From contig JARLHO010000007.1 in the NCBI GenBank assembly GCA_031292215.1, positions 1 to 58,646 on the forward strand: 58,646 nt of DNA, written 5' to 3'. Of this stretch, positions 2,306-48,798 are shown one piece after another. Under the pieces are notes generated by a model. That model was not told the origin of the DNA. It saw nothing but the letters and a program-made list of their open reading frames with translations, and searched no databases. This stretch comes from Syntrophobacteraceae bacterium (GTDB lineage: Bacteria > Desulfobacterota > Syntrophobacteria > Syntrophobacterales > Syntrophobacteraceae). A program made the position numbers and the translations under genes. Position 1 is the first letter of the stretch. Each line of letters begins with the position of its first letter.

Positions 2306-3333
2306 TAATATTTCGTAAAAGGGGAAAGTCTTCGACGTACAAAACGTTCTATCGAAGTCGATGATGAGTCACCGATAATTTCAAAAAGCCGGTTCATTGA
2401 AATCTCGGCCCGCGCCATGGCTTCATGGCCGCCGGCGCAACCTATGGCCCCGAACGCTTGCCTGACAAGCCGGCCCGCATCCTTTCGATGTCCGTCGTTT
2501 CGGACACATATAATGAGGTTTCCCTGATAGAGGCCGGAAACAATACTCCAGTTAATGTCATGGATTTTCAGCAAAAATTCGGCCACCTCGACCAGTATGT
2601 CCGGCGATGGAACCTCGTCAAGATAAGCGAAAATGCGGTCCTTTACAACGTGCTTTCTGGCGAATGCCTTATGGAAAAATTTGGTGTCGCTAAGAGAGAG
2701 GTCCGAAATCTCGATTTTTCCCAAAATATTGTGGTCGGCAAACTCAAAGAGGTACCGGAAAGCATCGATGTCTTCCACCAGGGTGTGGCGTTCGAAGTTG
2801 CGCGTATCCGTCTTTATTCCATAGAGCAGGGCGGTGGCAATGGTTTGAGAAGGTTGGACGCCCGCAGCCCTCAGATATTGGGTCATTATGGTGGAAGTAG
2901 CCCCGTAATCCGGACGAATATCGCAGAAGGCGGCGTCGATGCGATTGTTTTGCGGATGATGATCGATCACCGCCGTAAAAGCAAATCTACTGAAAAAGTC
3001 GTTATGCGATGGCTGGCCGTCTACGAGCACAAACTTATCGGCCTCGATGGTCGCCCCGCTTTTCAAAAGAACCAGGGGAAGGCGGAGCAGGCGTGCCATC
3101 GTGAGATTGTTCAATCGCTTTATCTGCCTGATGATCCCGATCGAAACCGATGACACCTTATGCCAAAGGAGTCTTTTTACAGCAAGAGCGGCCCCGATGG
3201 CATCGGGGTCGGGGTCAATCATGATCAGAACGCAATCTTTGGAGCCAAAGCAAGAATAGAAGGCTTCGAGCTGGGGTTGCCAGGTCTTTCCCTGGTGGGC
3301 GTAAATTGGGGGTGAAGGTTCAATTTGGCTCAT
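2305..3333 (-). CDS. DHH-family phosphoesterase
   Basis: A DHH/DHHA1 phosphoesterase of about 342 residues, related to the NrnA/RecJ-like enzymes that degrade nano-RNA or cyclic-dinucleotide products. Visible motifs are [11 protein letters not shown] (first metal-binding loop), DGQPS, the defining DHH in VIDHHPQN, and [11 protein letters not shown] of the DHHA1 domain near the C-terminus. The reading frame is open further upstream, through a terminator and into tRNA-Gly. The first start after the terminator is ATG at 3333 (MSQIEPSP), which is chosen here. It overlaps the start of rnhA. The precise substrate cannot be read from the sequence. Confidence 0.85.
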
Positions 3334-3361
3334 GGCATGAGAAATATATCCGGAAATGGTC

Positions 3362-3392
3362 AACGAAAAAAGGGTGGTCATTGGACCACCCT
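3362..3392 (-). terminator. Rho-independent terminator after tRNA-Gly
   Basis: On the minus strand AGGGTGGTC, a 4-nt loop (CAAT) and GACCACCCT form a perfect 9-bp stem immediately followed by a run of T. It begins 14 nt past the tRNA 3' end. Its presence argues against the longer DHH start at 3381, which lies inside the hairpin. Confidence 0.85.
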
Positions 3393-3405
3393 CAATTTCC
3401 GTCAG

Positions 3406-3477
<72 letters not shown>

Positions 3478-3555
3478 GATCGAATTCAGTGAAATTAGTA
3501 GAAAACTGCGTGGAGGTCAAGAGAAAAGTGTGCCTCTCATTTACGTCCGATAATA

Positions 3556-3933
3556 TATATTATGTAAACCTGCCGAAACCCCGCAGGTTTACATAATATA
3601 TACGGATCTTTGCGAGTCTGATAAGGCCGTAAGAAAGTCCCGATCTATTTGTTGCGGGGACCCCTCGCCAGGATCAAGCTCCGGCGAAGCGCCTCCGTAC
3701 ATAATATGTTTTATCGTCCGCTGGCCGAACGGCGTGCCCGTAGGGGTTTGGAGATCAAATATAAAAAAAAACTATAGATGTGCTTATTAAGCTTTCAAGT
3801 GAAGGGGGGGCGGCTTCGCCGCAAGTGGAAACGTCGAGTTTGAATGCCAGACCCCCCCCGCGGGTTCTTTCCCTATCCACACGTCCCGCCCCCCGAAAAT
3901 CCATTTTAAACCCCTTCTAGCCCCCTAAGAAAG
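3556..3933. repeat. Dispersed non-coding element, copy A
   Basis: This element opens with a perfect 18-bp inverted repeat (arms 3556-3573 and 3583-3600, 9-nt loop). After it comes about 330 bp shared almost base for base with copy B at 4292-4685. Shared landmarks in order are gcgagtctgataaggccgt, tttgttg, acccctcgccagg, the tacataatatg word, a GGCGGC-TTCG-CCGC hairpin and the end ctagccccctaagaaag. No open reading frame is conserved between the copies. It may be a non-autonomous mobile element or a structured RNA; no flanking target duplication is visible. Confidence 0.75.
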
Positions 3934-4291
3934 GCAGTCTCTTCGGTAGTCACATCCCCTACGACGACAGTTAGCGATGACAGGCCGTCCCCAAAACTTT
4001 GCTCCCGCACGCGGCCGGCCTTGCTCATCGCAAACTGTCTGCAACACGCTTGTTCCGTCCAGACGTCCAGGCTACGGGGGCATCCACACGGCGCCTAGAC
4101 CGCCGCACCCGGACGCGGGGAAAGACCCGGCCGAAGAAGTCGGGTCCGAGTCCGAGTACGCGGGCGCTTGCCAGCCGGGGGGGCGGCTGGCCGCGCCTCC
4201 TCAGAAAATCGAAGGTGAATATGGAGGGAGGGAGGGGGGGGGTTAAGGGAAATACGGGTTCCCTGCCGGCCCAGCAGCCGATAAAAGCACC
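3934..4291. other. Unassigned spacer between the two repeat copies
   Basis: This is a G+C-rich stretch of about 360 bp without a recognisable gene. The plus-strand open frames here (3977-4246, 3999-4400) are low-complexity in composition, lack a ribosome binding site and run into copy B, so they are not called. I see no tRNA, terminator or known element. Confidence 0.5.
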
Positions 4292-4685
4292 ATTATGTAA
4301 ACCTGCCGAAACCCCGCAGGTTTACATAATATATCCGGATCATTGCGAGTCTGATAAGGCCGTAAGAAAGTCCGGATCTACCGGATCATTGCGAGTCTGA
4401 TAAGGCCGTAAGAAAGTCCGAATCTATTTGTTGGGGGACCCCTCGCCAGGTTCAAGCTCCGGCGAAGCGCCTCCGTACATAATATGTTTTATCGTCCGCT
4501 GGCCGAACGGCATGCCCGTAGGGGTTTGGAGATCAAATATAAAGAAAAAAGTTTGAGATGTGCTTAATAAGTATTCAAGTGAAGGGGGGCGGCTTCGCCG
4601 CCAAGAGGAACCGCCGAGAATTGTTTTCCAACACGTCCCTTCCCCCGAAAATCCATTTTAGACCCCTTCTAGCCCCCTAAGAAAG
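4292..4685. repeat. Dispersed non-coding element, copy B
   Basis: Second copy of the element at 3556-3933 in the same orientation. The head hairpin has 15-bp arms (4292-4306, 4316-4330) with the same loop. Copy B differs by a 46-bp tandem duplication at about 4335-4426 (unit starting ccggatcattgcgag and ending gatcta), absent from copy A. It also has scattered substitutions and small indels in the A/G-rich tracts. The right end abuts the 3' end of the radical SAM gene, whose stop codon lies at 4709. Confidence 0.75.
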
Positions 4686-13518: not shown

Positions 13519-13781
13519 GGGGTAACCCCAACGAACGCACGACCAGCCGCAATTCCATGAAACGTAGCTGAATTTATGATACAATCATGCATCGTACAGT
13601 AAGGCCGAGGGGACCGGATGGGGTGGATTGCCAAAAACAACTGTTTTTGATCACGGTTCAAGCGCCTTGTGAAACCCGCACCGGCTCTCAGTTTTTCAAG
13701 GTCATCCTCTCAAGGGTTTTTCACCATCTTACGAAGTGCGCACCAATTTGCGGCTGGTCGCACGAACGTTGGGGTTACCCC
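13519..13781. repeat. 36-bp imperfect inverted repeat bracketing about 190 bp
   Basis: The left arm (13519-13554, starting ggggtaaccccaacg) and right arm (13745-13781, ending cgttggggttacccc) are reverse complements with about four mismatches and one indel. Each arm also contains a short palindrome. The right arm lies at the boundary where relaxase homology starts, so the pair may mark an insertion or inversion edge. No target duplication was found. Confidence 0.6.
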
Positions 13782-14384
13782 AAAAAGGCGGTAGAGCTCG
13801 ACCCCATACACTGCAAACGTCACGGGTTAAAGAACCTGGCCGACAGGGAGAGGACCAGGTGGGCCGAGCTTTGCAACAAGAGCCTTGAGCGCGCCGGCGT
13901 TTCGACCCGGGTGGACCACCGGAGCCTGGAGGCCCAGGGGACCCCGCGCGTGGCGGGCGTACATCTTGGTCCCAACGTGGTCCGGATGGAGAGCCGAGGC
14001 CTCAGGACCGATCGGGGGGACGCCGGCTGCGAGATAGAAAAGCAAAATGAAGAAGTCCGGAGGATTTCCGCTCAAATTATCGACCTGGGCGAGGTCCGAG
14101 GTCGGATGGAGTCGGAACGGGATCGCGCTCGCACGGGAGCTCCCGGCGATTTTGTACGGGCCCCTCTCACAGGGAAGGAAAAAGAAGCCGTTCGGGAAGG
14201 ACGGGCGGTCCCTTCGAAGGAAGAGGCCCACCCTGTCGGGGATGACCATGCCGAAAGGCTCCATATCAAAGTACCCTACGAGGAAAAAGATACAGCGAAG
14301 GCGAAAGGAGCGCGGTGGGATGTTCAAAAACGGTCGTGGTACGTTCCTGCAGGCGAAGACCTCGCGGGCTTTGAAAAATGGTAA
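13587..14384 (+). pseudogene. MobA/MobL-type relaxase remnant (C-terminal part with DUF5710)
   Basis: This frame begins within unrelated sequence. From about 13794 it resembles the C-terminal half of plasmid MobA/MobL relaxases: VELDPIHCKRHGLKNLADRE, RWAELCNKSLERAGV, a VDHRSLEAQG motif and HLGPNVVRMESRG. It ends with a DUF5710-like tail (HIKVPYEEKDTAKAKGARWD, RSWYVP). The histidine-bearing catalytic N-terminal domain is missing. The 3' end is cut by a dispersed repeat: the stop codon TAA belongs to the repeat starting at 14381. It therefore cannot be a working relaxase and is a relic of a mobilisable plasmid or integrative element. Confidence 0.75.
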
Positions 14385-33032: not shown

Positions 33033-36084
<3,052 letters not shown>

Positions 36085-38583
36085 ATGAAAAAAAAGCTTT
36101 CCTTGAAACCAAAACTGATTCTGACCTGCCTTTGTCTTACCATCTTGCCTGCAATAGTCGTGGGCGCTTTTGGACTCAACCAACTGCGTTCCTACTCCAA
36201 CGAAGCGGTCTCCGAGTCTTATAAGACATTGGGCGAGGAGTGCGGGCAAACGCTCATTAGCGGCGTGGGATCGGATCGGGAAGTTATCAAAGACTTCATT
36301 AATCGTGCGCAAAGCGATGCGAAGATACTTGCCGGCTCGACCGATATGGTGGGCTACGTTTCGGCTCTTGCGGGCAAAAACGAATTATTCAACGGTTTGG
36401 CGCAAAGGGAAGTTGTCCGCACTGTCAGTGGGATTCTTTCGAACTGCGAACTTGAACAGAAAATGATTCAAAGAACCCCTGCGTTAAAAGATCAGGCCAT
36501 GGCGGATCTGGTCGGAAATATCCTGAGCATCAAAATCGGTCGGACAGGGTACCCCTTCGTGATGGATTCCAAGGGTAATCTTTTGGTTCACCCCGAAGGA
36601 AAGCTCATTGGCAAAAATACCATAACAGACCTCCATTTAACCGCTTTTAAAGATATTTTGGCCGCCAGGAAAGCGGGCGTAACGAAAATGCTGTCGTATT
36701 CCTTCGAAGGCCGCGATAAGTTTCTCTTTTACAGTTATTTTCCCGATTGGGACTGGATTGTTTGCGGCAGCGGCTACTGGGATGAGCTCTCTACAGAGGC
36801 CACAAAGGCTTCTTTTGCCCTTCTAAAAGATGAATTCAAAACGCTTTACCTGGGTTCTTTCCTGCCAATAGAGGGAAAGTCCGAACCCGTTTATAACCAA
36901 ATCCGCTACATCGACGATAAGGGCTCCGAGATCGTAAACCTCAAAGACGGGCAGTTCAGCAAGATCCTTGTTTCCAAGGCCAACCAGCCATGGTTTAAGA
37001 AGTGTTTACAACTCAAGCCCGGAGAGCTGAGTAACTCCGGTGCGGTCATCGCCGAAAATACCGGTATGGCTGAAATGCGCCTTTGCTCGCCTGTCTATTT
37101 TCATGGTTCCTTAAAAGGCGTGGTCGTCTTCAACCTGGATTGGAAACTGGCCTGGAAGTTACTAAAAGGCCATGTTTACGGCAAAACGGGCTATGCGTAT
37201 ATCCTAAACCGGAAAGGTATTTTGATCTCTCACCCCAAATACGATCTCACCAGGCCGGTAAACCTGGGGGATCCTAAATTCGGAGAAATATCAGCCATTG
37301 TAAGAGATAAGATGCTCAAAGGTGAACGGGGTATCTCTCGTTATACTTTTGAAGGAATCGATAAATTTGTCGCCTTTATGCCTTTAAAAATCAACGGCCT
37401 GCTATACAGTATAGCCGCAACCGGCCCGACAAACGAATTTCTGGCAGCCGCCAACACCCTGAAGGCCGATGCCGGAAAACGGGCATCGAGGGCCGCTCTG
37501 GGGATCGTTTTGGCAAGCCTTGCCATGATGATCATAGGCTGCACCATCGGGATAATTGTAAGCAGGGGCATCTGTCGCCCCGTCACCCGGGTCATTAACG
37601 GTCTTCTGGATGCGTCCGGGGAAATTTATTCGGCCTCGAGTCAAATTTCGTCATCTAGCCAGCAACTTGCCGATGGCGCCTCCGAACAGGCCGCAGCTAT
37701 CGAGCAAACCTCCTCCTCGCTGGAAGAGATGGCTTCGATGACCACGCAGAACGCCGAGAATGCGCAGAGTGTGGATTCACTAAGGGGAAAGGTCGGCGAT
37801 ATGTTGGCAGAGGCGGATAGCTCCATGGCCAACCTCGCGCAAGCCATAAACGAAATCTCGGCAGCCGGCGCCGAGACGCAAAAAATCATCAAAACAATTG
37901 ATGAGATCGCTTTTCAGACCAACCTTCTCGCTCTTAACGCCGCAGTTGAGGCTGCCCGGGCAGGTGAGGCCGGGGCGGGATTCGCCGTGGTGGCCGATGA
38001 GGTGCGAAACCTCGCCATGCGCGCCGCCGAAGCGGCAAAGACCACGACCGCGCTAATCGAAGGAACGTCCCGGCAAATACAGCGAGGCGCCGGACTGGCC
38101 GACAAAACCTCCCGGGCCTTTGGCACAGCCATCGCCTCATCAAAGAAGATGGGCGAACTCATTGCCGAGATCACCTCAGCAACCCGGGAACAGGCCAGGG
38201 GAATCGAACAGGTAAATAAGGCCATGTCGGATTTGGATAAGGTTGTCCAACAAAACGCGGCGACCGCCGAGCAATCGGCCGGCGCCTCCGAAGAAATGAA
38301 TGGTCAGTCTTCACGGATGGAAACGATCGTTCGCGGTCTTGTCACGATGATTGGCGGGAGCGCCGCGGAGCGCGTAGGTGGCCAGGGCGAGCACTCGCTT
38401 CCGGAACGCAAAAGTAATGGCTCAGCACTTGCCGGAGCTCGAAATCCCGCAACGAGCGCCGTATACACCGGCAATGGGAACAGCCACGTGAGGGCTGCGA
38501 AGTTCTCCGATGTCGGGAGGAATTCGCAGGAGGTGCGTCCCGACAAAGTCATTCCGTTTCAAGATAATCCCGGGGATTTTTGA
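36085..38583 (+). CDS. Methyl-accepting chemotaxis protein with large dCache-like sensor
   Basis: 832 residues from ATG 36085 (AGGAGG 10 nt upstream). Layout: membrane segment near 12-32, a periplasmic double-PAS (Cache) sensor of about 430 residues with two similar halves ([20 protein letters not shown] and [20 protein letters not shown]), and a second membrane segment near 470-495. Then come a short HAMP-like linker, methylation helices and the signalling hairpin tip at about 605-645 ([20 protein letters not shown] then [19 protein letters not shown]). The C-terminal tail ends [10 protein letters not shown]. It probably senses a small organic ligand and signals to CheA/CheW. Confidence 0.92.
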
Positions 38584-38738
38584 GGCTTATTTTTGAGGCT
38601 GTTAAAAACCGTTGGCCTAACAAAACCTGATTAATCGATGCCGCCCCAAAACCGATGGAGAACCTGTTCGGGATAGAGACTTTGAACGTATGAGTCTCTA
38701 TCCCGGGCGGCGGATGTGCGGTGTTTTAGAAAATGAAT

Positions 38739-39352
38739 TCAAGGTATTACGGCGCCCCCTGATACGGAAAGGATTGTATTTGAAAACGCCTTCAACTGGG
38801 CGCATTGATTGATTGCGACCCAGAGGTCGTTTTCACGAAGAATGCCGCCCGGCATCCCGTGGTTTGATATAGCTGTCCCGACATCCGCCGATCGCAGACT
38901 TCCCTGATACGGTACGATGGGGGATTATTGTGATTAACCTTCTCGGGTTGGCCGGCGGGAGCGGTTTTGTTATGTCCCGAAAGCCTTTGGATCGTGGTCC
39001 AATAGGGCAGGAGCCACGCCTCGAAATCGTGCTGGGCCGCATGGGGATGAAATCTCGGTTCATCGCCGACCCGGGTTCGCATTTTGGCCTTCGCCTCGTC
39101 GGCATCTTTGAAATCCGGGGGATTGGTCCCTGAATAAACGTCGGTTAGAGCCAGGACGTGGTCCGCAGCATTCCTGCCCATAAGCGGATTTTCCACGGCT
39201 CGCTTTAATTTATCTTCCTTGGGGACGCGGCCATCATAGGGGAAGGTGTCCAGCTTGGGCATGCGTCCTGCCAGACGTGTTTTAAGGTATTCCCTCAGAT
39301 ACGGCATGAATGCTTTTTCCGTTTTCCCTTCGACTATTATGGAGATTTTCAT
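38739..39352 (-). pseudogene. DUF4276-family (TOPRIM-like) protein, broken by two frameshifts
   Basis: The N-terminus MKISIIVEGKTEKAFMPYLR and HAAQHDFEAWLLPY are typical of DUF4276 proteins. The open frame runs on to 38792, but family-like sequence moves frame twice. After about 38900 the expected DSYIKPRDAGR lies one frame over (ending 38833), and after about 38844 LRENDLWVAINQCAQLKAFS lies in the third frame, ending at 38739. Taking out two extra bases gives a coherent 203-residue protein. The ATG overlaps the stop of the ATPase gene (ATGA), so the two were coupled. DUF4276 proteins usually partner AAA ATPases in putative anti-phage modules. Sequencing errors cannot be excluded. Confidence 0.75.
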
Positions 39353-40498
39353 GATCGCCCGCCCAGTCGCCCCAGTCGCCACGCTTCGTCCAAAGTATAC
39401 TCGGAAAGCCACTCGTCCAGGTCCATTGAGTCCGCCCGGGTCGCCGTTGCACAGCCTGCATCGTCTATGTCCATTACGACCACCTCTTCGGGCTTCAGGA
39501 ACCGGACAAGCCGGTCAGAATGCGTTGCTACGATCAACTGGGTCCTAAGGGATGCTTCCCGCATAATATCGCTGAGAATGCTCAGCAGTTCCGGATGCAG
39601 GCTCACCTCCGGTTCGTCGATCATGGTGACGGTAGGTAAGTTGGGGCTTTGCAAAAGAGACGCGAGCCAGAGAAAACGAAGGGCGCCCTCCGACAACTCA
39701 TTCATGTAAAACGGCTTATCGAATTTTTTGTCTTTCCATGTCATGGCAAGCATACCGGCCGCTACCGGTGGAAAGCTCAACCCCTCGAAATCAGGGAAGG
39801 CCGCTTTCAATGAATCAATAATTATTTCAAACCGGCAGAGGTCTGTTTCCCGCAAATAGTAAAGGTACGGCGCCAGATCTTCTCCATCGGCGCCCGGCAA
39901 CGCGGCAGGCTTCATCTGTTGCGGCAGCTTCACCGGCGATCGAGGGCCAACGTCAAGAACGTGGTATTGCGTAGCAGTGGCCAGAATGCGCCTCACCTCT
40001 TCCGGTTGGCGTAACATCTTCGGCGCCTGTGACAGGGATGTCTCCAGGGGATTGTGTTCCCGATCGGGTCGAACGAGGTGTGCCTCGTCCATGTCGAAGT
40101 AGCGGATATCACCGTCGGAGGAATTGATGTGGTTAATAAGGATTGGGATGACCCTTGCGCGGTTGCGACAGGATTTCCCTGGAAATGGAATAGCCTGTGC
40201 CTTTGGTTGCAAGGCGAAGATCATATCCTGGCGGTTCATGTCCGGGAACCTCCATATCAACCAGAAAAGAAAGCTCATCTGTTTTGCCGCTGGTAAGAAG
40301 ACTCACGATACCGCCAAGTTGTGAGAGTGTCGCATTCAGATTTCCGGAAGCCGAAGCGGAGAGCATGGTGAAAGCATCCAAAAAGGATGTCTTACCGACA
40401 CCGTTGGCGCCGATAAACACCATGAAAGGCCTTACAGGCAGGTCAACCGCCAGCAACCTGCGAAACCCGCTAATTTTGATCCGTTTGATTCTATTCAT
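39349..40498 (-). pseudogene. OLD/AAA_21-type ATPase, broken by one frameshift
   Basis: Two abutting frames encode one protein. The first part, from ATG 40498 (GGAAGG upstream), has IKISGFRRLLAVDLP and Walker A GANGVGKTS at residues 30-38, and runs to a stop at 40133. The second part, in another frame and joining near 40165, carries the continuation RVIPILINHINSSDGDI, the signature-region MNELSEGALRFLWLA, Walker B VTMIDEPEVSLHPELL and the ATHSD switch histidine. Both halves match SMC/OLD-like AAA_21 ATPases. The last codon overlaps the DUF4276 gene start. Confidence 0.8.
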
Positions 40499-40588
40499 AT
40501 CGCCTTCCTTCATCAGGAATTGCTTTTCCGAGCCTTGGCGTTGACGGTTCATCCAGACCTTTGCGCCCGGGGGCGATAAAAGGCCTTC

Positions 40589-42439
40589 CTAGGAGTTATG
40601 CGCTAAAAACCCCTCGATCCCAAGCTCGCGAGCACGCCCTTCGACCCTGCGCACAACTTCGGGGTCCATGTGGATGTCGCCCGGCCAGGGGCGGGTGTGG
40701 CCGTCTTCGATGCCCTTTGCTGTGGCGTCGATTACGATTCGCCCGTTTAGTTTTACGATGTCTCTTGCCGGATCGACGTTATTGAAGACCTTCCAGAGAA
40801 CGAGCGAGTAATCCCGCAAATCTATCGACGAGTCAAACAGGACAAGGATCGAAAAAGGCTCGAGCGCCGGGTCCCGGAGAAGCCCCGGGGAGAGAGATCG
40901 GCCCGGGGTTTTGCCGTCTTTTTTAAAATTTATGAGCAGCAGCCGGTTTCGGGTCTCCAGGAGCGGGCAATGGAAGGTGGAGAGGCCGGATACCTCACCC
41001 AGACTTTTTTCTATAACATCGTCGGGCGGGACTGGAAGGTTTTGCCGAAGGGGTCTTTTTCTTTCGTCCGGATGCCTTTTCGTTGCGTCCAGTCCGATTT
41101 TGCTTCCGAAAAGCGGGTCGGGGGCGCTGTGGTCAAGGACATCGAGAATGCCCTCGGAGATAAAGACATCGCTTTCGAGATCTATTTCGTTGAGAATTGT
41201 CTCCAACACCTTTCGGGGACTTTTAAGAGAGATATCGGCGTCAACGAGCGCCACGGCCTTGGTAAAGCTCATTTGCCCCTGGCTCCAGACAGCGCTCATG
41301 AGCCTTCTGGCATGGCCGGGATATTCCTTCTTAAGAGCCAGTACCACGATATTATGGAAGACGCCTTCCCAGGGCATCCAGAAATCGCGCACCTCGGGGT
41401 GAATCGTTTGGACGAGCGGCAGAAATACGCGCTCGGTAGCCTTTGCGAGCCAGCAGTCCTCCATCGGCGGCCGTCCCACCAGGGTCGCCGAGTAGATCGG
41501 GTTCAGGCGATGGGTGATGGCCGTAAGGTGAAAGACGGGATAATCGCCTACAAGCGAGTAATAGCCGGTGTGGTCGCCAAAGGGTCCCTCCATGCGCAGT
41601 TCATCGGGGTCCACATAACCTTCCAGCACGAATTCGGCCTCGGCTGGAACCTCCATGTCTATTGTGACACAGCGGGTCATCCTGACCGGTTTTTTGCGGA
41701 TAAAACCCGCGAGGAGCATCTCGTCGATTCCCTGCGGAAGAGGGGCGGTGGCGGCCCAGGTAACGGCCGGGTCGGTCCCGATGGCAACTGCTACCGCCAT
41801 GCGCCTGCCCGCCTTCCTGTACTCCTGGAAGTAATGGGAGCCGTCCTTGTGGATGTGCCAGTGCATTCCGGTCGTATTGCGGTCAAAGACCTGAAGCCGA
41901 TACATCCCTGCGTTGCGCCTGCCGGTCTCCAGGCTGCGGGTGAATACGACGGGAAGAGTGACGAAAGGTCCGCCGTCGCCTGGCCAGCACTTGAGGACGG
42001 GGAGCTTCGAAAGATCGATTTGTTCGCCCCTTAGCACCACTTCCTGGCAAGGGGCATTGGAGGTCTTGCGGGGAAGGGCCTTGAGGATGTCCAACCCCAT
42101 GGGAAGAAGTCCAGCGAAGTCTCGGAGAGACTTTGGCGGACTAAGGCGTGCGAACCGTTCGATCCTTTGGGCGAGGGCATCTAGGGAGTCGGTCCCAAGG
42201 GCCATGCAGATACGGCGTTCGCTTCCAAAGGCGTTGGTCAAAACGGGGAAGGGTGAGTCGCCAACACGCTCGAAAAGGAGCGCTTTGCCCCCTCCCGGCG
42301 CCTTGGACGCCAAATCGGTTATGTGGGAGATCTCTAGTTCGCAGGAAACCGGAGCGCTTATTCGGAGAAGTTCTCCGGCCCTTTCGAGCTCCGATACGAA
42401 TTCACCAAGATTTGTAAACGCCGTTTGTAAATGTGTCAA
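40589..42439 (-). CDS. mqnL: UbiD-family decarboxylase, probably menaquinone (futalosine-type) pathway
   Basis: A prenylated-FMN decarboxylase of 616 residues. UbiD motifs are visible: MYRLQVFDRNTTGMHWHIHK and GRRMAVAVAIGTDPAVTWAA. The acid triad region EFVLEGYVDPDELRMEGPFG, with GDHTGYYS, follows. The size and the neighbouring polyprenyltransferase suggest the late menaquinone decarboxylase of the futalosine pathway (MqnL/TIGR03701-like) rather than an aromatic-acid carboxylase; that assignment is inference. Start TTG 42439 follows the upstream stop by 4 nt, with GGAAGG at the right distance. Confidence 0.8.
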   Translation of the reverse strand: MTHLQTAFTNLGEFVSELERAGELLRISAPVSCELEISHITDLASKAPGGGKALLFERVGDSPFPVLTNAFGSERRICMALGTDSLDALAQRIERFARLSPPKSLRDFAGLLPMGLDILKALPRKTSNAPCQEVVLRGEQIDLSKLPVLKCWPGDGGPFVTLPVVFTRSLETGRRNAGMYRLQVFDRNTTGMHWHIHKDGSHYFQEYRKAGRRMAVAVAIGTDPAVTWAATAPLPQGIDEMLLAGFIRKKPVRMTRCVTIDMEVPAEAEFVLEGYVDPDELRMEGPFGDHTGYYSLVGDYPVFHLTAITHRLNPIYSATLVGRPPMEDCWLAKATERVFLPLVQTIHPEVRDFWMPWEGVFHNIVVLALKKEYPGHARRLMSAVWSQGQMSFTKAVALVDADISLKSPRKVLETILNEIDLESDVFISEGILDVLDHSAPDPLFGSKIGLDATKRHPDERKRPLRQNLPVPPDDVIEKSLGEVSGLSTFHCPLLETRNRLLLINFKKDGKTPGRSLSPGLLRDPALEPFSILVLFDSSIDLRDYSLVLWKVFNNVDPARDIVKLNGRIVIDATAKGIEDGHTRPWPGDIHMDPEVVRRVEGRARELGIEGFLAHNS

Positions 42440-46346: not shown

Positions 46347-46751
46347 ATGGACAACCTGTCGCCCGAACAGCGTAGCATGCAAATGAGCTTGGTTCGATCC
46401 AAGGATACGAAGCCCGAACTTCGAGTACGGAGCCTTGTACACGGGCTTGGATATCGCTACCGTCTTCATAGAGTCGAGCTGCCCGGCAAACCGGACCTCG
46501 TATTCCCATCCAAGAGGAAGATCATATTCGTGCATGGATGCTTTTGGCACGGGCACGATTGCCGTTTAGGCAGAATGCCGAAATCAAGGATTGAGTATTG
46601 GCAATTCAAAATTGCCAATAACCGGGTGCGCGACAGAAATGTTGTAAAATGCTTGCATGAAATGGGATGGCAATGTCTTGCCATATGGGAGTGCGAATTA
46701 CGCGACCATATGAAATTGGCGGAGCGGATTAGGAAGTTTTTGGAGTCGTAG
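46347..46751 (+). CDS. vsr: Very short patch repair (Vsr) endonuclease
   Basis: A 134-residue protein that nicks next to T:G mismatches arising from deamination of 5-methylcytosine. The family residues are present: D50 in PGKPDLVF, histidines 63, 68 and 70 in VHGCFWHGHDC, and the opening SPEQRSMQMSLVRSKDTKPE that binds DNA. It accompanies the cytosine-C5 methyltransferase of the same island, as expected for a system that protects its modified sites from mutation. Confidence 0.92.
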   Translation: MDNLSPEQRSMQMSLVRSKDTKPELRVRSLVHGLGYRYRLHRVELPGKPDLVFPSKRKIIFVHGCFWHGHDCRLGRMPKSRIEYWQFKIANNRVRDRNVVKCLHEMGWQCLAIWECELRDHMKLAERIRKFLES

Positions 46752-46775
46752 CGACATAGAGGCAAATGATTGACG

Positions 46776-47702
46776 ATGAGGCCGGAAGAGTTTGAAAAGA
46801 TTCTGGATGCGCTAGCTTCTAAATTGACGAATGAAGTTCGGGTTGACTCATCGCTCCGCGCCCCCAGCCATTTTGAGACAAGGGTGCGCACTGACCTGCA
46901 GGCGTTGCTAGTGGCTGAAGGTGTAACCGCTGAACTTAACTCACGCCCGCAAGTATTTCCTGACATCGTTTTTGAGCAGTTCGGCATTGAGGTTAAGTTT
47001 ACCGATTCTGATTCCTGGCGAAGTATAGCGAACAGCGTCTTCGAGGGAACCCGCGATGCCAAGGTCGAGCATATCTACCTCTTATTCGGAAAAATCGGTG
47101 GTACGCCGGCAGTGCGTTGGAATAAGTACGAAGACTGCGTGATGCACGTCAGGACATCTCACGTGCCCCGATTTGAGGTTGAAATCGGAGCCAAGGAGCC
47201 GCTTTTCGCCAAATTTGGCATTACGTATGAAGAATTTAGAAATCTTTCAATTACAGGGAAAATGGTTCACATCCGAAGCTACGCAAGAGCCCGGCTTAAG
47301 CCGGGTGACCGGCTCTGGTGGTTGGAGGATAAGCCTGAATCCGCACAGCAGCACTCTCTTTCGCTGGAGGTTCGCCTTTACATGGGACTAAGTCAAGACG
47401 AGAAGCGCAGGCTTCGAGCTGAGGCGGCTCTTCTGTGTCCACAAGTGGTTAAGTCGCCAAGGTCGAAAAGGAAATATGACGATGCCGCAATGTACCTTCT
47501 CACCTACCGTGGCGTTTTATGTTCCCAGGCGAGAGACCTGTTTACAGCCGGGAGTGTTGCGATGCGGGCTGACAAAACACGGGGTGGCAACTATATGGCT
47601 CGTTCCCTTCAGGATATCGAGGCCGAAATGAGAATGGCTGTCGAGGAGCTTGAGGACGCCCTCTTTGTCGAATATTGGGGCTTTACGGCGCCAGCCGGCT
47701 AG
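46776..47702 (+). CDS. Putative type II restriction endonuclease (PD-(D/E)XK)
   Basis: 308 residues from ATG 46776 (a TTG 6 bp upstream is weaker). The catalytic core reads PDIVFEQFGIEVK, with D63, E72 and K74 in D-x8-E-x-K spacing. No other family is obvious. The gene sits 24 bp after vsr and points towards the cytosine methyltransferase gene, which is the usual R-M-vsr cluster. Some type II enzymes of the NgoBV/NlaIV kind share such arrangements; the recognition sequence cannot be read here. Confidence 0.75.
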   Translation: MRPEEFEKILDALASKLTNEVRVDSSLRAPSHFETRVRTDLQALLVAEGVTAELNSRPQVFPDIVFEQFGIEVKFTDSDSWRSIANSVFEGTRDAKVEHIYLLFGKIGGTPAVRWNKYEDCVMHVRTSHVPRFEVEIGAKEPLFAKFGITYEEFRNLSITGKMVHIRSYARARLKPGDRLWWLEDKPESAQQHSLSLEVRLYMGLSQDEKRRLRAEAALLCPQVVKSPRSKRKYDDAAMYLLTYRGVLCSQARDLFTAGSVAMRADKTRGGNYMARSLQDIEAEMRMAVEELEDALFVEYWGFTAPAG

Positions 47703-47769
47703 CGGATAAATAAGTGGTTAGAGCTAGCCGACCAATACGCTACCGGCTGGAGGCCTTCGGAGGTACTCT

Positions 47770-48798
47770 TCAGGCAGTAGCTTGATTCGGTGTTATCGCG
47801 CAATCATCCGCCCTATTATGTAAAAATTTGCTTATTTGTAGAGCGACGTGCCAAGCGAGGACAGGCGGCACAGCATTACCGACTTGCCTCTCTGTTTCCC
47901 GCAGCATGGAATCAAAGATGAAACTATCTGGAAAAGACTGTACTCGCGCCGCTTCGCGCATTGACATGCGCCGTTTAAGGCGATAATGCCACTGAATGTT
48001 TCCATGACATTCAGCTCTGATGGTATAACCAGGGCGGTCGGCCCTTAGAATTCGGTCTCCCTGCTCCGGACTCTTGTTCGCGCGGCTCCAGATGTGATTG
48101 AATCCTGGATTTTCATCCATACTTTCCAAATCCTCTATAGCCTCTTTAACGGTCATCCAGTCCTCCGTGGCGCGTTCTGTCGGCGGCGGAACGAACGGCT
48201 TAACTTTGTATGAAGTGCCCACAATGAAAACACGGTGCCGAGTTTGAGGTACGCTATAGTCAGCGGCTTGGTACGGCTCACATGAGAGTCTGTACCCTAA
48301 TTCTCCAAAGTCGGCCATGACCTGTTGCAGCGAGGCGGCGTTGCATGACATTAAGAGGCTGCCCACGTTTTCGGCTACAAACACTGAAGGCTTTGTCCGC
48401 TCAATCGCCTGTACCATTGCTCGGTAGAGTCCGCTCCGCTTTCCATTCACACCGGCGCGCTTGCCGTTCAGCGAAATATCTTGGCATGGAAAGCCGCCGA
48501 TCAAGACGTCAGCCGTTCCAGGGAGCGTATCGAGGGCATCCCATACGTCACGGCAAAGGATGTCTTCTCCTATGTTTCTTCGATAGGTTGCGCACGCCTT
48601 GGGATTATGTTCATTGGCCCAAATAATCCGAAAAGGCAGTTTGCCGTAGTAGCGTCCGAAGACCTCAAATCCACCGATGAAGCCTAGATCCATGCCTCCG
48701 CAACCCGAGAACATTGAGACAACAGAAAACTCCTGCGATGAATGCGGTAGGCACCCCATTGTGCTGATGTGTTCTATTTTTGCATAGTCTCTATCCAT
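47770..48798 (-). CDS. DNA (cytosine-5-)-methyltransferase, type II
   Basis: 342 residues with the ordered C5-MTase motifs: I SMFSGCGGMDLGF; IV IGGFPCQDIS, whose catalytic cysteine is C105; VI VAENVGS at about 142-148; VIII QTRHRVFIVG; and X RQVGNAVPP near the end. It should methylate the island's cognate site and protect it from the endonuclease. ATG 48798 has a strong GGAGGAG upstream. It is transcribed convergently with the endonuclease gene. Confidence 0.93.
   Translation of the reverse strand: MDRDYAKIEHISTMGCLPHSSQEFSVVSMFSGCGGMDLGFIGGFEVFGRYYGKLPFRIIWANEHNPKACATYRRNIGEDILCRDVWDALDTLPGTADVLIGGFPCQDISLNGKRAGVNGKRSGLYRAMVQAIERTKPSVFVAENVGSLLMSCNAASLQQVMADFGELGYRLSCEPYQAADYSVPQTRHRVFIVGTSYKVKPFVPPPTERATEDWMTVKEAIEDLESMDENPGFNHIWSRANKSPEQGDRILRADRPGYTIRAECHGNIQWHYRLKRRMSMREAARVQSFPDSFIFDSMLRETERQVGNAVPPVLAWHVALQISKFLHNRADDCAITPNQATA

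Follow-up and report, generated by a model that had tools for sequence, protein, structure and literature searches.

The window, a stretch of 58,646 nucleotides from the draft genome of a Syntrophobacteraceae bacterium (contig JARLHO010000007.1), reads on its minus strand, from 40498 to 38739, as an ABC/OLD-type ATPase gene followed by a DUF4276 gene. The first-pass annotation had placed two minus-strand genes within these limits, correctly: the ATPase begins with the ATG at 40498, the final DUF4276 stop ends at 38739, and the ATGA at 39349-39352 is the ATPase stop overlapping the DUF4276 start. The ATPase frame is broken once, at about 40131-40163, and the DUF4276 frame twice, at 38892-38897 and about 38843-38851 (Table 1).

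Table 1. Pieces of the ATPase-DUF4276 pair in the window
Feature	Position	Strand	Matches
ATPase pseudogene, N-terminal piece with Walker A (GANGVGKT), first frame (-2)	40136..40498	(-)	HEC-01A 6.7e-17 and AAA_15 2.2e-9 on the longer ORF 40133-40552; tblastn, 42 of 42 relatives
ATPase pseudogene, C-terminal piece with Walker B (IDEPEVSLHP), second frame (-3)	39349..40131	(-)	HEC-01A 3.7e-53 and AAA_21 2.9e-21 on ORF 39349-40278; tblastn, 42 of 42 relatives
DUF4276 (Toprim-like) pseudogene, first piece, frame -2	38897..39352	(-)	PF14103 1.8e-20 and HEC-01B 3.8e-10 on ORF 38792-39352; tblastn, 42 of 42 relatives
DUF4276 pseudogene, middle piece, second frame (-3)	38845..38892	(-)	tblastn, at most 87.5% over 16 residues; 29 of 42 relatives at the E limit of 10, several weak
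DUF4276 pseudogene, last piece with the family C-terminal end and stop, third frame (-1)	38739..38843	(-)	tblastn, 42 of 42 relatives, 40-72%

The breaks were located by tblastn searches (E up to 10) of the whole window with the proteins of 42 relatives in which both genes are open, one of them (L016) with the 5' end of its ATPase cut by a contig end. Every query recovered both ATPase frames, -2 and then -3, and the two outer DUF4276 frames, arranged as expected; the -2 matches to the DUF4276 gene end near 38897 and the -1 matches run from about 38849/38843 to 38742. Chance does not give such ordered multi-frame matches, and the single split of the ATPase and double split of the DUF4276 gene proposed at first pass are borne out. 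The accompanying suggestion to compare the frames with DUF4276 and AAA_21 succeeded in part. Pfam matches the ATPase N-terminal piece (AAA_15/AAA_21), the C-terminal piece (AAA_21) and the first DUF4276 piece (PF14103, profile positions 1-155 of 192), but the shifted DUF4276 piece submitted to it is missed by Pfam alone.

No single-base run longer than three lies within 10 bases of any break, so the homopolymers considered at 38844 and about 40165 are not there, and none of the three breaks has a tandem repeat; tandem repeats do occur at 38576-38600 and 39362-39380, both away from the breaks. The two genes also differ in residue conservation. Six of 75 near-invariant columns are changed in the DUF4276 protein versus one of 110 in the ATPase (Fisher p = 0.018), the share of deviating DUF4276 columns having a median of 2.6% among the relatives and being as high as in the window in 3 of 41. 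One change replaces with Arg a Trp that is invariant in the 41 relatives. The view that all expected motifs are retained is nearly right, most of the deviations being in the DUF4276 protein.

Directly downstream of the pair lies a perfect 12-base inverted repeat (38670-38704). Mobility of this palindrome was considered and rejected, as it is present in a single copy in the genome.

Family and predicted fold

Profile matches assign the pair, as a decayed copy, to the PADLOC candidate defence family HEC-01 (Hma-embedded candidate 01, models HEC-01A and HEC-01B) and not to PARIS. HEC-01A is the top PADLOC model for both ATPase pieces, and a DUF4276 gene stands adjacent to and downstream of the ATPase, as for a HEC-01B-type partner. 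Best HMM matches for both genes, order and adjacency are therefore held in common with HEC-01, the difference being that both genes are broken in the window copy. Functional HEC-01 has both genes open; with its three frame breaks, the window pair is filed as a decayed family copy and not as a functional system. In the relevant passage of PMC12988326 several HECs, HEC-06 included, are shown to be active, and HEC-01 is not named in that passage.

The first-pass annotation had drawn a comparison with PARIS, of which the layout stands and membership does not. PARIS (AriA/AriB) likewise combines a separate ABC ATPase with a Toprim-like protein, and in an intact relative whose DUF4276 protein was modelled, a predicted Toprim-like fold lies next to an ABC ATPase. 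Nevertheless, the first DUF4276 piece has no DUF4435 match (Pfam, E up to 1) and no AriB among its five PADLOC matches, and the ATPase scores better with HEC-01A than with AriA models. The OLD nucleases (class 2) resemble the pair in that the DUF4276 model is nearest to their C-terminal Toprim region, and the ATPase profile matches OLD and GajA chains; in OLD and Gabija, however, ATPase and Toprim are parts of one chain, whereas the 41 complete relatives encode them separately, in two genes that both end in a stop of their own. PMC12409363 names AbiL and MADS (mad3) as further Toprim-ATPase associations. The ATPase C-terminal piece matches AbiLi (1.8e-13) and mad3 (2.2e-11) far more weakly than HEC-01A, and no AbiLii-type partner was found, AbiLii reaching only E = 0.041 on the DUF4276 protein. 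In the literature searched, five papers were listed for HEC-01, one of which deals with phages; the term DUF4276 did not occur in this literature, and the matches listed for MADS names, and for defence systems with pseudogenization, were on other subjects.

The DUF4276 fold was modelled on an intact Chlorobiaceae relative (L006; pLDDT 91.9, pTM 0.89). This model aligns with the OLD Toprim 6nk8_A at Z = 10.4 (rmsd 3.9, 168 aligned) and with AriB of PARIS, 8ux9_A, at Z = 7.9 (rmsd 4.1, 165 aligned), and Foldseek returned 6nk8_B at E = 5.6e-5. The hypothetical archaeal protein 2p62 ties with the OLD Toprim (Z = 10.2), and lumazine synthases and other alpha/beta folds start at Z = 6.1. The predicted DUF4276 fold is Toprim-like, nearest to the OLD nucleases and then to AriB; at the level of sequence, a profile of 41 DUF4276 relatives gave no convincing relative of solved structure (best E = 0.055). 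For the ATPase, a model of pLDDT 90.9 gave alignments at Z of about 20 to Rad50/SMC heads and PtuA, and the ATPase profile also matches PtuA and AriA chains. The coupling of an ATPase with a Toprim-like partner, suggested from the letters alone, is in this way corroborated by Pfam, PADLOC and predicted fold.

Gene context and origin

A full copy of the pair is present in none of 10 other same-genus genomes; one of the genus (G003) holds a fragment and one of the family (G018) a distant pair. Four of the six same-genus species examined have gyrB after ubiD, about 0.4 to 3.7 kb apart. The content of this interval differs, and in one species of the genus it is nearly empty. The corresponding interval of the window (35570-40589, 5 kb) holds the ATPase-DUF4276 module and a chemotaxis receptor gene. 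The closest relatives by ATPase identity (75-76%) are from Chlorobiaceae, and the closest by path on the DUF4276 tree, where strong support is lacking, are Desulfatibacillum and Desulfococcaceae. Owing to the absence of full copies in the genus, the variable interval and the relatives found elsewhere, sequence comparison points to a horizontally acquired, mobile accessory module. The ubiD-gyrB interval is possibly an insertion hotspot.

The context scan covered 121 of 182 flanking ORFs at 40 of the 41 intact loci (L007, an identical copy, was omitted). The flanks consist mostly of housekeeping genes, a setting that lends little weight to a role in defence, and a defence-island context was rejected because no defence model matched more than two of the 121 ORFs. 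Viral carriage was likewise rejected, with no relatives among IMG/VR contigs; the ATPase C-terminal piece had four distant matches in a phage collection and 240 among plasmids, all below 60% identity.

Elsewhere in the same genome, contig 160 carries a second, divergent and open DUF4276 gene (PF14103, 6.6e-47), which with an ATPase-like neighbour recognised by eye makes up a second ATPase-DUF4276 pair (L079, 241-2105). An open Type II restriction-modification set comprising Vsr (7.2e-33), a restriction enzyme (1.3e-109) and a C-5 cytosine methyltransferase lies at 46347-48798 of the window, about 6 kb from the broken pair.

Decay of the pair

Intact relatives, which the first-pass annotation had advised looking for, were found in number. 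Among 53 named relatives gathered in one scan (sample 1), 41 have the two genes complete and similarly ordered, and 32 of these show the ATGA overlap; three loci are cut by contig ends and nine are broken (L018, L022, L031, L035, L051, L055, L056, L057 and L058). Sample 2 came from whole-genome searches with the DUF4276 profile, which covered the phylum of the window (3 of 297 genomes), a cyanobacterial phylum (17 of 386), one cyanobacterial order (50 of 368) and two other phyla (4 of 396 and 3 of 392). Once 10 loci already present identically in sample 1, the doubles L086-L090 and L105-L107 (covered by longer stretches) and the distant matches L110, L111 and L113 had been set aside, its 47 loci comprise 30 with both genes open (L097 and L140, with divergent DUF4276 ends, included), three cut by contig ends and 14 broken. 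In both samples together 23 of 100 distinct relatives are broken, the classes having been assigned by reading the tblastn output. On the DUF4276 tree the nine broken relatives of sample 1 and the window need 10 separate changes, of which the well-supported branches alone force five. Decay is scattered over the tree and recurs in distant relatives.

Mostly preserved motifs support a recent inactivation of the window copy. The alternative named beside it at first pass, an artefact, would mean that the species has an intact pair and that the draft miscalls three positions. We regard this as unlikely: a draft of 4.89 Mb in 177 contigs could contain such errors and the ATPase residues are almost perfectly conserved, but three breaks without homopolymers fall within 1.76 kb, none was noticed in other housekeeping genes of the 58.6 kb window, and indel errors would not cause the residue changes at near-invariant DUF4276 sites, which favour true decay. 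When 40 ORFs of the window were scanned with Pfam (E limit 1e-12), 32 matched and only one of these, at 13587-14384, looked like a remnant; it covers positions 163-224 of 224 of the MobA/MobL profile, has a DUF5710 tail and is likely left over from a mobile element. A codon-usage scan of the window, its flags inspected by eye, gave no further split housekeeping gene. Flags at 12.6-13.4 kb and 15.3-16.9 kb were rejected as frameshifts, separate genes being seen at both; we take them to be an acylphosphatase-like and another small gene in the former, and a radical SAM and a PyrE-like gene in the latter.

Two further explanations would leave the pair with a use. A phase-variable immune module, toggled off and on by slippage as had been proposed at first pass, would be expected to keep its residues largely conserved, like a silent but recoverable gene, and this is the case; yet the breaks have neither runs above three bases nor tandem repeats, three separate breaks would have to revert jointly, and the lesions of relatives, which are stops, frameshifts, deletions and one insertion, lie at other sites, so that this explanation is hardly credible. 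It is also very doubtful that the pieces work as separate short proteins (domain fission) or through programmed frameshifting. The ATPase C-terminal piece does have its own upstream start codon, giving an ORF of 309 residues, but Walker A stands alone in the other piece, the middle DUF4276 piece of 16 residues is too short for a protein, each gene is in one frame in the 42 query relatives, and no slippery sequence was noticed by eye at the breaks. The switched-off module that had been offered beside the phase-variable one agrees with the three frameshifts.

The joint explanation that we prefer, with a probability of roughly 0.7, starts from a HEC-01-type module that was acquired horizontally and has recently been silenced by three small mutations, each changing the frame, so that the window copy can yield no full-length ATPase or DUF4276 protein. 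For intact relatives it holds that the ABC/OLD-type ATPase most likely detects infection and keeps a separate Toprim-type nuclease in check, on the pattern of AriA and AriB in PARIS. Activation of the nuclease would halt phage growth to the detriment of the cell, and such a costly effector could drive the loss of the module. According to PMC12409363, AriA keeps AriB inactive and frees it on sensing a phage protein, whereupon AriB cuts tRNA. We infer a similar logic here from the split layout, the Toprim-like predicted fold and the decay of the nuclease-like gene first, all of which fit it.

This order of decay is suggested by loci with one gene broken and the other whole, the lesion falling in the DUF4276 gene at 10 of 12 (binomial p = 0.0007) against a 35% expectation from its share of the pair length (0.345), in a test that is post hoc, conceived after sample 1 had been seen, and counts mixed-quality genomes without a control gene pair. 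The ATPase is whole and DUF4276 broken in L022, L031, L058, L094, L142, L144, L145, L146, L147 and L148, and the converse holds in L102 and L136. A strict count omits L058 and L147, in which the deletion reaches into the final residues of the ATPase, and gives 8 of 10 (p = 0.004); for sample 2 taken separately the figure is 7 of 9 (p = 0.01). Since the loci were found through DUF4276, copies wholly without it are missed, a bias that works against the skew. The skew agrees with DUF4276 being a costly effector that the ATPase keeps in check, although L102 and L136 are not predicted by a strict toxin-restraint model. Tentatively, and as a somewhat less than even proposition, the pair may decay repeatedly across bacteria with the nuclease-like gene first, DUF4276 being a costly, toxin-like effector that is held by the ATPase and shed early, and the restraint being lost seldom. 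The window copy would then represent a later stage, given two breaks and missense changes in DUF4276 versus one break in a nearly unchanged ATPase.

Taken by itself the window locus is ordinary, a pseudogene pair from a candidate family already known; what is worth following, and moderately interesting, is the recurring, nuclease-biased decay. With 23% of relatives broken and the lesions skewed to the Toprim-like gene, an uncharacterised candidate family acquires a testable prediction, namely that the nuclease alone would be harmful and that the ATPase would be its restraint. In other paired systems, too, seeing which gene decays first could help to recognise the effector and the sensor ahead of any experiment.

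Several lesions in relatives deserve separate mention. L018 and L022, from different phyla, both have TAG at DUF4276 codon 39 (4115-4117 in each), probably by coincidence. This column holds Tyr in 24, Cys in 7 and Gln in 5 of 41 relatives, and read-through was rejected because single-base changes from these residues suffice; selenocysteine is inapplicable to TAG. In L057 (about 3894-4396) and L058 (about 1450) deletions join ATPase and DUF4276 remnants. In L145 a 1.5 kb insertion (2513-4052) splits the DUF4276 gene beside a whole ATPase gene and carries a transposase-like ORF of 490 residues, which is presumably IS66-like.
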